A stretch of DNA of 56,867 bases from assembly GCA_947623745.1 (NCBI GenBank), contig CANQHN010000017.1, positions 1 to 56,867 on the forward strand. The letters are read 5' to 3'. Origin of the DNA: an uncultured Oscillospiraceae bacterium (GTDB lineage Bacteria; Bacillota; Clostridia; Oscillospirales; Oscillospiraceae). Of this stretch, positions 1,572-6,085 are shown one piece after another (the first letter of the stretch is position 1; the number at the start of each line of letters is the position of its first letter). The translations under genes and the position numbers were made by a program. The notes beneath the pieces were generated by a model, which worked only from the letters and a program-made list of their open reading frames with translations, did not search any database and had not been told where the DNA came from.

Positions 1572-3050
1572 TCACAGGATGATGCAGATGAGCCCGCCGG
1601 ACCCCTCGTTGATGATGCGCTGGAGGGTCTCCCGCAGCTTGGCGCGGGCCTCCTCGGGCATCCGCTTGACCTTGGCGTTCAGGTCCTCCCCCACCAGCTC
1701 GTGGAAGGACTTGCCGAAGATGTTGGACTGCCAGATCTTCTGGGTGTCCCCCTCGAACTCCTGGAGCAGATAGTGGATCATGTCCTCGCTCTGCTTCTCA
1801 CTGCCCACGATGGGGGACACCTCCGTCTCGATGTCCGCGCGGATCATGTGGATGGAGGGGGCGCTGGCCTTCAGGCGCACGCCGTAGCGGCCCCCCTGCT
1901 TGACGATCTCCGGCTCCTCCAGCACCAGGGAGTCGATGGAGGGGACCACGATGCCGTAGCCGGTCTCCTCCACCTCCTTCAGGGCGCCGGCCACCTTGTC
2001 ATAGGCACTCTTCACCCCGGCCAGCTGGGTGAGCAGGCCCACCAGGTCGCCGTCGTCGGCGATCTGGAACCCGGACTGCTGGGACAGGGTGGTGTAGAAC
2101 AGCGACCGGGGCAGCTCCAGCTCACCCCGGGCCACCCCCGTACCCAGGTCGATGGCTGACACCCTGGCCGAGCTGACCTGCTCGCAGCCCCGGATGGTCC
2201 CCATGGACCCCTCCACGTCCCGGATGCGGCGCAGGCACCCCGCCCCCTCCCGGATGGCGGCGTACAGGGCGGCCTTGATGGGGTGCTCCCGGGGCAGGGC
2301 GTCCACCCAGGGAGGCAGGAACAGGTCCAGCTCCTTGATGGGGAACTCGTAGAGCACGCTCTTGAGCAGCTCGCCGATGTCCCCCTCGGACAGCTCCAGG
2401 CAGTTGGCCGCCACACAGGTCACGTCGTACCGCTTGGAGATGTCCGCCCGGATGGCCTGGGTGCGCTCGGAGGCGGGGTAGGCGGAGTTGAGCAGCACCA
2501 GGAAGGGCTTGCCCAGCTCTTTCAGCTCCGAGATGACCCGCTCCTCCGCCTCCAGGTAGTCCTCCCGGGGGATCTCGGTGATGGTGCCGTCGGTGGTCAC
2601 CACGATGCCGATGGTGGAGTGCTCGGCGATGACTTTCCGGGTGCCCACCTCCGCCGCCTCGGCCATGGGGATTGGCTGGGGAAACCAGGGGGTGGTGACC
2701 ATGCGCTCGGTCTCCCCCTCCAGGTGGCCCACCGCGCCGCTGACCATATAGCCCACGCAGTCGATGAGCCGCACCTGGAAGGCCGCCGCGCCGTCCATGG
2801 ACACCGCCACCGCCTCCTCCGGGACGAACTTGGGCTCGGCGGTCATGATGGTGCGGCCGGAGCCGCTCTGGGGCAGCTCATCCCGGGCCCGCTCCCGGCG
2901 GTAGACGTTTTCGATGTTGGGGATGACCAGGGTCTCCATGAAGCGCTTGATGAATGTGGATTTTCCCGTGCGTACCGGCCCAACCACGCCGATGTAGATA
3001 TCGCCCTCGGTGCGCAGGGCGATATCCTCATAGATTTTGCGATCTTCCAC
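1572..3050 (-). CDS. spoIVA: Stage IV sporulation protein A, spore coat ATPase
   Basis: SpoIVA hydrolyses ATP to polymerise into the basal layer of the coat around the forespore; SpoVM anchors it to the outer forespore membrane. The product is 492 aa, the same length as B. subtilis SpoIVA, with the P-loop GPVRTGKST at residues 24-32, a Walker B-like DCVGYMV near residue 97 and the conserved hydrophobic C-terminus ending ICIIL that contacts SpoVM in Bacillus. It starts at a GTG (3048-3050) preceded by GGAGGAATATCA. It has its own sigma-E-type promoter (3094-3123) and its own terminator. The neighbouring sipL and probable spoVM encode its known partners. Confidence 0.98.
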   Translation of the reverse strand: MEDRKIYEDIALRTEGDIYIGVVGPVRTGKSTFIKRFMETLVIPNIENVYRRERARDELPQSGSGRTIMTAEPKFVPEEAVAVSMDGAAAFQVRLIDCVGYMVSGAVGHLEGETERMVTTPWFPQPIPMAEAAEVGTRKVIAEHSTIGIVVTTDGTITEIPREDYLEAEERVISELKELGKPFLVLLNSAYPASERTQAIRADISKRYDVTCVAANCLELSEGDIGELLKSVLYEFPIKELDLFLPPWVDALPREHPIKAALYAAIREGAGCLRRIRDVEGSMGTIRGCEQVSSARVSAIDLGTGVARGELELPRSLFYTTLSQQSGFQIADDGDLVGLLTQLAGVKSAYDKVAGALKEVEETGYGIVVPSIDSLVLEEPEIVKQGGRYGVRLKASAPSIHMIRADIETEVSPIVGSEKQSEDMIHYLLQEFEGDTQKIWQSNIFGKSFHELVGEDLNAKVKRMPEEARAKLRETLQRIINEGSGGLICIIL

Positions 3051-3189: not shown

Positions 3190-4698
3190 TCAGCGCACAC
3201 GGGGGATGAGCAGCATCCTGCCAGCGGGCAGCTGGCCGTCCTCCAGCTCGTTGGCCTGGGAGATCTCCTCCTCGGTGGTGCCGTAGGCCTTGGCGATGTC
3301 CCACAGCCCCTCGCCGGGAGCGCTCATGCGCAGGACGATGGACGGCTGTCCCCCGTCCCCCGCGGTCCGCTCCTCCCCCAGGTCCGCGCCGCAGACGCCC
3401 TGGACCTGGTCGTCAGCGGTGATGAAGCTGTGGAAATCCAGGGTAAAGCGCACCTCCAGGCCGCCGGCGGCGGGGATCACGTACAGCTCCCGGGGCTGGG
3501 CGCACCAGCACTGGCACGTCCCCGCGGCGCTCTCGCAGCGGCTCTGGACGGACAGGGACTTCTCCACCCCCTGGAGCTGTCCGGCGTCATCCAGGTACAG
3601 GGCCGTGAAGCGCACCTGGGCCGTGAGCACGGTCTGCTCCCCCTCGGTGCCCCGGGCCACCTCCCCCACCTGGGCCCAGCAGCAGGGGACGGCCCGCACC
3701 GGGGTGGTGGTCTCCATCAGCTCCCGCACCGGAACGGCCCGTTCCCCCTGCTCCATGACCCGGTGCAGGCGGTAGGTCTCCATGCGGGTCTCCGTCCGGC
3801 AGCTGGTGCTGTACAGGTCCCGCAGGATGGTCACCGGCCGGTGCTCCCGGACCACGGCCTGAGCCAGCAGCTCCGCCGTCACGGTGCCGATGCTGCCCCC
3901 TTCCAGGTCCTCCAGCCGCAGCTCGGACAGGGCCGCACGCACCTGGCAGCGGCTGTCCTCCCCGACCCCGGCCACCTCCATGATCTGGGAGAAGGCCAGG
4001 CTCTGGCGCACCGTTTTCAGCTCGCCGCCGTCCCGCACCAGGGCCTCCAGCTCCAGCGCGCCCTTGAAGATGAGCTTACTGCCGATGAGCTTGCTCTCGG
4101 CGCAGCGGGGCTCGCCCCGCAGGGTGAGCACCTCCCCGTCGGAGAAGCCCAAATCAATGTCCTCCGAGAATGTAAAGGGTTTTTCCTGTACGGCTATTAC
4201 CACGTCGGCCCCGTGCTCGGTCAGCAGCTGGCGCACGCCGTTCTCCCCGTCCTCCGCCGCGCCGGAGCACAGCTCCAGCTGGGAGGGCTGCCAGGCCTGC
4301 ACCTCCACCGCAAGCTCCAGGCGCACCAAAATCTTCCGGGGGTTGAGCAGACGGGCCTCACACCAGCGCACCCGGGGGAAGGCCAGGGCGCTGCCCTGCC
4401 CGGTGAGGGCCGGGGCGTCGGCCTGGCAGGTAAAGGGCAGGTCCACCTCCATCCGGCGCACCTCCTCCCCCGCCTCGGGCAGGTAGAACACACAGGCCCG
4501 GGCCTGGCCAGTGACGCTCACCGCCCCGTCCCGCACCTGCTTGTTCGTCAAATACGCCTGTCCCTCCGCCTCCAGGATGCGCAGGATGTCCGGGCAGGCG
4601 TCGGGCACGATGGCCTCCCTCGTCTCCTCCTGACACACCGTGGCGTCCAGCGCCAGCTCATAACAGTTTACCGTATCACGCCGCAATTCCAGCTCCAT
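3190..4698 (-). CDS. sipL: SipL-like spore coat morphogenetic protein (DUF3794 repeats plus LysM)
   Basis: SipL, described in Clostridioides difficile, binds SpoIVA through its C-terminal LysM domain and is needed for coat encasement; it is the functional counterpart of Bacillus SpoVID. Most of the 502-aa product consists of DUF3794-type beta-rich repeats, and residues ~450-500 form a LysM-like module (GEGLWDIAKAYGTTEEEI...LPAGRMLLIP). No signal peptide or membrane segment is seen, consistent with a mother-cell cytosolic coat protein. The ATG at 4698 has GAGGGAG eight bases upstream and is preferred over a TTG at 4722. It lies directly upstream of its partner gene spoIVA, which strengthens the call. 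A run of AT-rich codons occurs around 4150-4200. Confidence 0.9.
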   Translation of the reverse strand: MELELRRDTVNCYELALDATVCQEETREAIVPDACPDILRILEAEGQAYLTNKQVRDGAVSVTGQARACVFYLPEAGEEVRRMEVDLPFTCQADAPALTGQGSALAFPRVRWCEARLLNPRKILVRLELAVEVQAWQPSQLELCSGAAEDGENGVRQLLTEHGADVVIAVQEKPFTFSEDIDLGFSDGEVLTLRGEPRCAESKLIGSKLIFKGALELEALVRDGGELKTVRQSLAFSQIMEVAGVGEDSRCQVRAALSELRLEDLEGGSIGTVTAELLAQAVVREHRPVTILRDLYSTSCRTETRMETYRLHRVMEQGERAVPVRELMETTTPVRAVPCCWAQVGEVARGTEGEQTVLTAQVRFTALYLDDAGQLQGVEKSLSVQSRCESAAGTCQCWCAQPRELYVIPAAGGLEVRFTLDFHSFITADDQVQGVCGADLGEERTAGDGGQPSIVLRMSAPGEGLWDIAKAYGTTEEEISQANELEDGQLPAGRMLLIPRVR

Positions 4699-4729
4699 TG
4701 TGACCGCTCCCTCATTCTTCAATGTCCGG

Positions 4730-4783
4730 CCCCGGCTCCGCCGGGGGCCCGCTTTGTGACACTGTATGCGCCGGGAGCCGGGG
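4730..4783. repeat. 10-bp inverted repeat between spoVM and sipL
   Basis: CCCCGGCTCC (4730-4739) and GGAGCCGGGG (4774-4783) are perfect reverse complements separated by 34 bases, inside the 99-base gap between the spoVM stop and the sipL start. There is no T-tract, so it is not a classical terminator. It could form an mRNA stem just ahead of the sipL ribosome-binding site. Confidence 0.5.
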
Positions 4784-4797
4784 TTATGCCCCCCGGG

Positions 4798-4872
4798 TCA
4801 CTCTTTCAGTCCAAACAGTCTGCGCAGCACACCCCGCAGCCACTTGGGGGAGCGCACCACTACGATACCCAC
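4798..4872 (-). CDS. spoVM: Probable SpoVM, 24-residue membrane-curvature-sensing spore coat anchor
   Basis: A 24-codon frame starts at GTG 4872 with AGGAGG seven bases upstream and ends TGA at 4798. Its core SPKWLRGVLRRLFG aligns without gaps to B. subtilis SpoVM (26 aa): Pro9, Lys10, Leu12, Gly14, Arg17 and Gly21 match, and hydrophobic positions 15, 16, 19 and 20 are conserved in character. SpoVM is an amphipathic helix that settles on the convex forespore membrane and recruits SpoIVA; Pro9 is critical there. Context agrees twice: sipL and spoIVA follow it, and the preceding prpC-prkC-rsgA order also leads to spoVM in B. subtilis. A sigma-E-like -10 (CATATACT, 4918-4925) lies upstream without a clear -35. 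Short length keeps some doubt. Confidence 0.8.
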   Translation of the reverse strand: MGIVVVRSPKWLRGVLRRLFGLKE

Positions 4873-4945
4873 AAGCCTTCCTCCTCTCGCCCAGACTCGG
4901 CCTTCGCCGGCTGATACAGTATATGGGATCGGGGGCCGCCGTGAC

Positions 4946-5200
4946 ACAAAAGAGGCCGGACTACCGTCCGGCCTCTGAGACTGTCGAAAAAGGCCAAGGC
5001 CTTTTCCGACAAAGGGCTGCGGCCCGCGGCAGCGCACTCGCTGCGCTCGCACGTTTGCGGGCCGAGAGGTATTTTTCCCAACGTGCATGCCGCCGGGAAA
5101 AATAGATCACACTGGATTCGCGCCTGTGGGCGCGAACTCTGCGAGGCTCTCTTGACAAACTAAGGCCGGACATTACCTGTCCGGCCTCTTTTTATTCTTA
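4946..5200. repeat. Gene-free structured interval of nested inverted repeats between rsgA and spoVM
   Basis: This 325-base gap (4873-5197) holds no convincing gene. Two similar hairpins bracket it: 4951-4976 (stem AGAGGCCGGAC, loop TACC) and 5163-5187 (stem AGGCCGGACA, loop TTACC), both followed on the plus strand by CT or CTCT. Inside are a 13/14-bp inverted repeat (4982-4995 with 4998-5011), a GGCCCGC/GCGGGCC pair (5021-5027, 5057-5063) enclosing GCAGCG/CGCTGC, a perfect 10-bp TATTTTTCCC/GGGAAAAATA pair (5070-5079, 5095-5104) and a perfect 8-bp TTCGCGCC/GGCGCGAA pair (5117-5124, 5129-5136). It could be a small mobile repeat, a structured RNA or a complex terminator. The left hairpin has a short minus-strand T-run, the right one a plus-strand CTTTTTATT. 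Confidence 0.7.
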
Positions 5201-6085
5201 TCGTTTTTCCCACTCCCAGTCCGGGATGGCCTTCACCTGCTCGTAGAGCCGCACATAGCTCTGGTGGCGGCTCCTGGGGATCTCCCCGGCCTTGACGGCG
5301 GCCAGCACGGCGCAGCCTTTCTCCTTCACGTGGGCGCAGTCCTGGAACTGGCACTTGTCCAGATAGGGCCGGAACTCCCGGAAGGTGTACTGCAGGTCCT
5401 CCCTGCGGGTGAGCTCCATGCGCTCGATATCGAAGGAGGAAAACCCGGGCGTGTCCGCCGCCACCGCCCCGCAGGACAGGCGGAACAGCTCCACGTGGCG
5501 GGTGGTGTGCCGGCCCCGGCCCAGCTTTTCGCTCACTTCCCCGGTCTGAATGGAGAACCCGGGCTCCAGGGCGTTGAGGATGCTGGACTTGCCCACGCCG
5601 GAATTTCCTGTAAAGGCCACTACCTTGCCGGCAATCAGCGCCCGGAGCTCCTCGATGCCGGCGCCGGTGGCGGCGCTGGCCAGGACGGTGGGGAACCCGG
5701 CTTTTCGGTAGATCTCCGCCAGCTCCTCCCCGGGGACCAGGTCGCACTTGTTGACGCAGATCACGCACTCACAGCCCCGGCCCTCCGCGATGGACACCAC
5801 CCGGTCGATGAGGAACGGGTCGGTCACCGGGGTGGCCCGGGAGGCAATGATCACCAGCTGGTCGATGTTGGCCACGGCGGGCCGCTGGAACTCATTTTTC
5901 CGGGGCAGGATCTCGTCCAGGGCCCCCTGCCCCCCGCCCAGGGGGGTAAAGGTCACCCGGTCCCCCACCAGGGGGGCGATCTTCCCGTAGCGGTGTCTGC
6001 CCCGGCCGCGGCAGGCGGTGATCTCCCGGCCGTCGTCCACGTAGTAGAACCCGCTCAGGGCCTTCATGATGATCCCCTGGGCCAT
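5198..6085 (-). CDS. rsgA: Ribosome small subunit-dependent GTPase RsgA (CpgA/YloQ)
   Basis: RsgA is a circularly permuted GTPase that checks late 30S subunit maturation. The 295-aa product shows an N-terminal OB-fold, then G4 (NKCDLV, ~115) ahead of G1 (GNSGVGKSS, ~165) and G3 (DTPGFSSF, ~210), the permuted order diagnostic of the family, and a C-terminal zinc knuckle with Cys and His ligands (CQFQDCAHVKEKGC). Its ATG overlaps the prkC stop (TAATG), so translation is probably coupled. In B. subtilis CpgA is itself a PrkC substrate, which suits the linkage. It is the last gene of the long run starting at cdaA. Confidence 0.97.
   Translation of the reverse strand: MAQGIIMKALSGFYYVDDGREITACRGRGRHRYGKIAPLVGDRVTFTPLGGGQGALDEILPRKNEFQRPAVANIDQLVIIASRATPVTDPFLIDRVVSIAEGRGCECVICVNKCDLVPGEELAEIYRKAGFPTVLASAATGAGIEELRALIAGKVVAFTGNSGVGKSSILNALEPGFSIQTGEVSEKLGRGRHTTRHVELFRLSCGAVAADTPGFSSFDIERMELTRREDLQYTFREFRPYLDKCQFQDCAHVKEKGCAVLAAVKAGEIPRSRHQSYVRLYEQVKAIPDWEWEKR

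Follow-up and report, generated by a model that had tools for sequence, protein, structure and literature searches.

A very probable spoVM gene of 24 codons beside sipL in an uncultured Oscillospiraceae bacterium, and its counterparts through the class

The spore coat is seeded by SpoVM, an amphipathic peptide of very small size. Galperin and colleagues reported in 2012 that spoVM occurs in some, though not all, clostridia, and asked about distant, undetected versions of it (PMC3533761, in excerpt). The question raised by the present locus is whether a frame of only 24 codons, in a 56,867-nucleotide stretch of DNA from an uncultured Oscillospiraceae bacterium (the whole stretch is hereafter the window), is one such version. 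This locus and the accompanying survey reveal distant spoVM versions of that kind in many genomes of the class. In the open literature, a scope that leaves out most subscription papers, no paper was found joining SpoVM with Oscillospiraceae, Flavonifractor or rsgA, and two papers that concern Lachnospiraceae mention SpoVM once each.

The reading frame and its resemblance to SpoVM

The frame and its neighbours are arranged on one common strand as follows.

1572..3050, minus strand: spoIVA (TIGR02836, 704 bits), less than 2 kb from spoVM
3190..4698, minus strand: sipL, next downstream, with a SPOCS domain and a C-terminal LysM (Pfam SipL 3.9e-19, LysM 3e-8)
4798..4872, minus strand: very probable spoVM coding sequence, GTG start, 24 codons and TGA
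4880..4885, minus strand: Shine-Dalgarno sequence AGGAGG, 7 nt ahead of the GTG
5198..6085, minus strand: rsgA, the upstream neighbour (TIGR00157, 217 bits)

The start of sipL was set at the ATG at 4698, within a longer mechanical ORF spanning 3190-4722. Read on the minus strand of the window sequence, the GTG start of the short frame occupies 4870-4872 and the TGA stop 4798-4800, and the 24 aa product is MGIVVVRSPKWLRGVLRRLFGLKE. This reading bears out the original prediction of a 24-codon frame with a GTG start and a well-spaced AGGAGG, the spacing being 7 nt. GGAGG-type sites are found in the same place in relatives, whose SpoVM-type peptides are 21-33 aa long across the genus, order, named and class loci.

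The peptide belongs to the same length class as B. subtilis SpoVM (PDB 2mvh and 2mvj) and aligns without gaps to residues 1-21, which form the B. subtilis side of the comparison. Identities fall at M1, P9, K10, L12, G14, R17 and G21, and thus include every one of the positions predicted (Pro9, Lys10, Leu12, Gly14, Arg17 and Gly21); the two differ in that the window has Gly2 for Lys2, Val6 for Ile6, Val15 for Ile15 and a GTG start. The ungapped BLOSUM62 score of 42 was reached by 1 of 200,000 shuffles, and of all start codons in the window with 21 or more open codons behind them (3395), the spoVM start ranks first, the runner-up scoring 19. The original prediction had leaned on the ungapped match at Pro9, an argument that is weak when taken alone because Pro9 is missing from some members of the family. 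The hydrophobic moment of the helix is 0.68 for the window peptide, 0.51 for B. subtilis SpoVM and 0.42 for shuffles (P 0.12 against shuffles).

The NCBIfam model NF033436 (SpoVM_broad) aligns to the window peptide over model positions 1-23 of 26 with a score of 13 bits, below its curated cut-off of 31 bits, and would therefore leave the peptide unnamed; this cut-off is a scoring threshold and no biological feature. NF033436 gave no match at E≤10 when run against the window's own genome, despite the 13 bits on the isolated peptide. The peptide had no Pfam match at E≤1, and the window had no Rfam match at gathering score. Because 13 bits lie below the curated 31, profiles were made from relatives alone. 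A narrower profile, A1, gave no match to PDB at E≤1; at E≤10, NF033436 was matched by 34 of its 35 members, the window peptide among them. The second profile, A2, is built from 79 peptides of the window's class without any Bacillus row, four of the 59 good class-level peptides having been excluded for an extended or odd N-terminus. Against 177,635 distinct PDB sequences at E≤5, A2 returned only 2mvh (1.7e-7) and 2mvj (6.6e-5), both of them B. subtilis SpoVM, with residues 1-21 of 2mvh aligned to A2 positions 1-21. A clear spoVM elsewhere in the genome was named at the outset as evidence against the reading; in this assembly, which is 97.9% complete, A1 and A2 each match a single place, the 4798-4872 frame, and neither found a second spoVM.

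The identification of the frame as spoVM is supported by this independent profile match to PDB together with conservation and selection, gene order, and co-occurrence with SpoIVA, all described below. The frame is a real gene and a new member of the known SpoVM family, and it is very likely that 4798-4872 is spoVM itself, the gene of the coat-seeding peptide. By analogy with published work in B. subtilis and C. difficile, its product would bind the convex forespore membrane and recruit and bind SpoIVA, and its expression would be under sigma-E control. With spoVM and sipL side by side in this lineage and spoIVA next here, the three coat basement-layer genes stand together, making the locus a compact spoVM-sipL-spoIVA cluster.

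Conservation, gene order and expression signals in related genomes

A search with the peptide at E≤10 covered 60 genomes, the window's own included, and matched 53 of them, namely 34 of 37 in the genus (own included) and 19 of 23 at order level. The three genus genomes without a match in this search are 58, 80 and 75% complete. One genus match (genome G033, E 0.58) looks like chance; the weakest order-level match (locus L049 of G050), which sits inside an ABC transporter-like frame, is chance, as is L050, which falls in an unrelated frame. Weak second places besides the main match were present in G015 and G029. The frame is present in all 30 genus loci read, comprising 29 loci (the window and 28 relatives), on which the selection, promoter and synteny counts are based, and L033, which stands outside those counts. 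The order-level locus L025 was left out of genus counts, and the genus matches in G005, G006 and G021 are not among the loci read. All 30 genus loci, the window's among them, have Pro9. The prediction was to fall if close relatives lacked the frame, its start or Pro9; among the 30 genus loci the frame, the start position and Pro9 are all kept.

In the 29 genus loci, which comprise 28 distinct coding sequences, the frame has a pS of 0.408 and a pN of 0.094 (pN/pS 0.23); in both alternative frames of these loci pN exceeds pS. Between the window and the other genus loci, pS is 0.410 and pN 0.116. The mean number of distinct bases per codon position in the genus is 2.95 at third positions and 1.86 and 1.24 at the others. 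Upstream of the frame, conservation is confined to a −10-like CATA element, a partly kept AGCCG stretch and the ribosome site.

These figures bear on the alternative that best survives beside a working spoVM, namely a true spoVM orthologue that has lost most or all of its function in this lineage and persists as a relic. The excerpted text of PMC5607322 describes SpoVM as largely dispensable in C. difficile, where spoVM mutants yield only ~3-fold fewer resistant spores, so its importance here is not to be assumed; the window's species is also alone among the 30 genus loci in having a GTG start and Trp11. The purifying selection seen both across the genus and between the window and its relatives, and the retention of the frame beside sipL in every usable locus, argue against decay, and a relic is considered improbable.

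The position of the frame between rsgA and sipL-spoIVA had been taken as the place where synteny predicts spoVM. The frame does lie there in the window, but the constant neighbour proves to be sipL and not rsgA: within the genus, all 29 loci have sipL as the next gene downstream, and 14 of them have rsgA no more than 1.5 kb upstream. L033 likewise has sipL and spoIVA downstream, with rsgA absent nearby. A SipL search of named records gave 69 loci, of which L130, L139, L141 and L144 (contig end) and L145-L149 (LysM-only match) were left out, leaving 60 usable loci, each with 396 nt or more of upstream sequence. spoVM precedes sipL in 60 of these 60, and rsgA falls within the upstream stretch (at most 4 kb) in 32; some genomes contributed both to the named loci and to those of the genus peptide search, so the two sets are not independent. 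The 60 include Flavonifractor plautii ATCC 29863 (L121), Pseudoflavonifractor phocaeensis, P. capillosus, Flintibacter muris and several Intestinimonas, and many of the remainder are MAGs. The spoVM-sipL pair thus recurs in Flavonifractor, Pseudoflavonifractor and Intestinimonas.

At order level, sipL is the downstream neighbour in L032, L035 and L040 and is divergent in L036 and L045, and rsgA is a neighbour in L038, L039 and L047. In L038, L047 and L151, spoVM stands behind rsgA, with sipL absent from the stretch read. In L203, from another family of the same class, rsgA is followed by two genes, which we take to be rpe and thiN, and then by spoVM. This agrees with what is presumably the B. 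subtilis order, rsgA-rpe-thiN-spoVM, and for this reason the rsgA neighbourhood looks old; the proximity of rsgA to spoVM would then be the older arrangement and the adjoining of sipL the later one. The window resembles this presumed B. subtilis order in having rsgA upstream of spoVM, and differs in that sipL and spoIVA follow. SipL is given as conserved only in Clostridia in the excerpts of PMC5607322, which also describe a C. difficile SpoVM that is clostridial like the present one and partners SpoIVA and SipL. In that species spoVM follows CD25622, which encodes a 50-residue protein, and is cotranscribed with it (same source, in excerpt), whereas the window spoVM stands directly before sipL.

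Four candidate expression signals accompany the genes in the window.

4761..4789, minus strand: candidate sigma-E promoter of sipL, GCATAAC (4783-4789), 14 nt, CATACAGT (4761-4768)
4918..4925, minus strand: candidate sigma-E type −10 of spoVM, CATATACT, of the CATA-type pattern
4940..4946, minus strand: possible, weak −35 of spoVM, TGTCACG, 14 nt from the −10
4953..4976, minus strand: terminator-like stem-loop and T-run between rsgA and spoVM

The promoter readings follow what we take to be the sigma-E consensus. The pattern CATA[TG][AG][ACG]T, which was picked after the alignment had been seen, is present 40-125 nt upstream of the frame at 21 of the 29 genus loci, against 0.31 expected from shuffles. 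A −10-like element lies near −54 in many loci; taken alone, the spoVM promoter site of the window is not significant (P 0.58). The terminator-like stem-loop separating rsgA from spoVM points to a promoter of its own for spoVM. The sipL candidate lies past the spoVM stop and is near-consensus, its score in the window being reached by 0 of 60 shuffles; 26 of the 29 genus loci carry a looser form of the pattern (expected number 0.000). In C. difficile, spoVM, sipL and spoIVA are under sigma-E control (PMC5607322, in excerpt).

The same signals weigh on a second alternative, in which the frame serves sipL as a leader peptide or upstream regulatory ORF and resembles SpoVM by chance. Its place just ahead of sipL in every usable locus of the group would suit such a role. 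A regulatory frame of this kind is nonetheless very improbable, as sipL has its own promoter-like site past the spoVM stop in 26 of the 29 loci, the peptide is found away from sipL in other families (L203, and L038, L047 and L151 behind rsgA), and A2 picks B. subtilis SpoVM specifically from PDB. That the frame is instead the C-terminal end of a longer protein, read from an in-frame ATG at 5088 that opens 96 codons through to 4798 (more than 14 codons are likewise open upstream in 15 of 28 genus relatives), is scarcely credible, given that the long frame has no family match, that about half of its upstream part is a dispersed repeat, that a stop lies 1-14 codons upstream in 13 of the 28 relatives, and that conservation begins at the GTG or ATG with its Shine-Dalgarno site. 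All 28 relatives have an ATG at the position of the window's GTG, with a ribosome site ahead, and this common start together with the upstream stops argues that the short, GTG-started spoVM gene is the conserved unit.

SpoVM and SpoIVA through the class

A survey of 293 genomes at least 90% complete, from the class taken to be Clostridia, found SpoIVA in 219. NF033436 exceeded its curated cut-off in 11 of the 293; at E≤0.01, it matched 104 genomes and A1 124. Before profile retraining, the union of A1 and NF033436 comprised 163 genomes, made up of 157 of the 219 with SpoIVA and 6 of the 74 without. A2 matched 168 genomes, 162 of 219 with SpoIVA and 6 of 74 without, a count in which at least 55 surveyed matches contributed peptides to A2 and match by construction; the Fisher P of 1e-24 for this co-occurrence overstates independence because the surveyed genomes are related. 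The survey profile picks up SpoVM in genomes that NF033436 misses at its cut-off.

The six A2 matches in genomes without SpoIVA (L168, L185, L186, L187, L188 and L212) look like real spoVM, so SpoIVA may be missing from those six assemblies. Conversely, A2 has no match in 57 of the 219 SpoIVA genomes, including G329 of the window's own family, so that the SpoVM partner is either not universal or sometimes missed. Some of the A2-negative SpoIVA genomes match A1 or NF033436 weakly, for example G166 (frame L204). In some families A2 matched none of the SpoIVA-positive genomes sampled (f42, 9 of 9 without a match; f48, 5 of 5).

From the 163 and 168 genomes, 74 class-level loci (60 and then 14) were read, a non-random choice made for family spread. 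In 73 of the 74 there is a short frame with a start codon at, or no more than two codons from, the first model position. One of the 60 matches first read (L208, in G233) is a chance match. The places matched by A1 in G165 (E 0.002) and G298 (E 0.008) differ from those of the other profiles there, which are proper short frames (L209 and L216). Whether SpoVM is a usual partner of SpoIVA class-wide, hidden by its size and a strict threshold, with a hinge repeatedly rebuilt (to Pro8, and in one genus to Gly8-Ser9), is a proposal that we judge evenly balanced.

Hinge variants, other residues and a dispersed repeat

Substitutions and displacements of the SpoVM proline have been studied, reportedly in the first place by Kim in 2017. 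A review states that P9A abolishes curvature preference and that variants with the proline re-placed at positions 7-13 were used (PMC12004969, in excerpt), and Ribis et al. describe Pro9 as the sole fully conserved residue of SpoVM (PMC5607322, in excerpt). After alignment, position 9 is without proline in 9 of the 73 class-level frames, so Pro9 is not strictly defining for SpoVM, and these frames may be the part of the survey most surprising to a specialist. Seven of them have Pro8 instead (L192, L194, L197, L203, L210, L212 and L217), and the other two, L154 and L216, which belong to a single genus, carry Gly8-Ser9 and lack proline altogether. Sequence matches place rsgA upstream of the frame in L154, and sipL and spoIVA downstream of it; L216 shows by eye the same frames in the same order, with SpoIVA 1.8 kb downstream on the same contig. 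As the order of rsgA, sipL and spoIVA is kept around them, both frames are, judged by position, spoVM orthologues. The survey thereby yields natural hinge variants for testing curvature sensing by so short a peptide, and if the proline-free peptides still read membrane curvature, it would be the flexibility of the hinge that matters and not the proline.

Lys2 is important in B. subtilis SpoVM, and Lys2 and Ile15 are the residues of the B. subtilis-type cortex checkpoint. The window has Gly2 and Val15 at these positions. Position 2 is Gly in the window and its 28 genus relatives, Glu in L033, and Lys in many other SpoVMs. Clostridia are said to lack CmpA (PMC5607322, in excerpt), and the cortex checkpoint function is accordingly not expected here. 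At position 11 the window has Trp, 27 of the 28 genus relatives have Cys, and L021 and L033 have Phe.

The gap between rsgA and spoVM in the window (4953-5189) contains a dispersed repeat with a core at about 4977-5162. The repeat has at least 47 matches, many partial, in its own genome (40 of 67 candidates, scored). Within a copy one and the same stem-loop stands on either side of the repeat, but this stem-loop varies from copy to copy, and many copies have A-runs outside the left flank and T-runs outside the right. The flanks were compared for only those of 30 loci with matches of about 150 bases or more (17, then 16), L075, in the same place as L056, having been dropped from the counts; in 13 of the 16 distinct copies the copy's own two flanks resemble each other more closely than does any left-right pair drawn across copies. 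The repeat has the look of a mobile element that uses terminator hairpins as insertion sites, duplicating each hairpin in full, and the excerpted open literature showed nothing obviously the same. A repeat with such an apparent preference for terminators may be odder than the spoVM finding itself. Matches to the repeat, some very short, were present in 8 of 35 other genomes searched, with 19 in G016 and at least 22 in G042, which belongs to another family.
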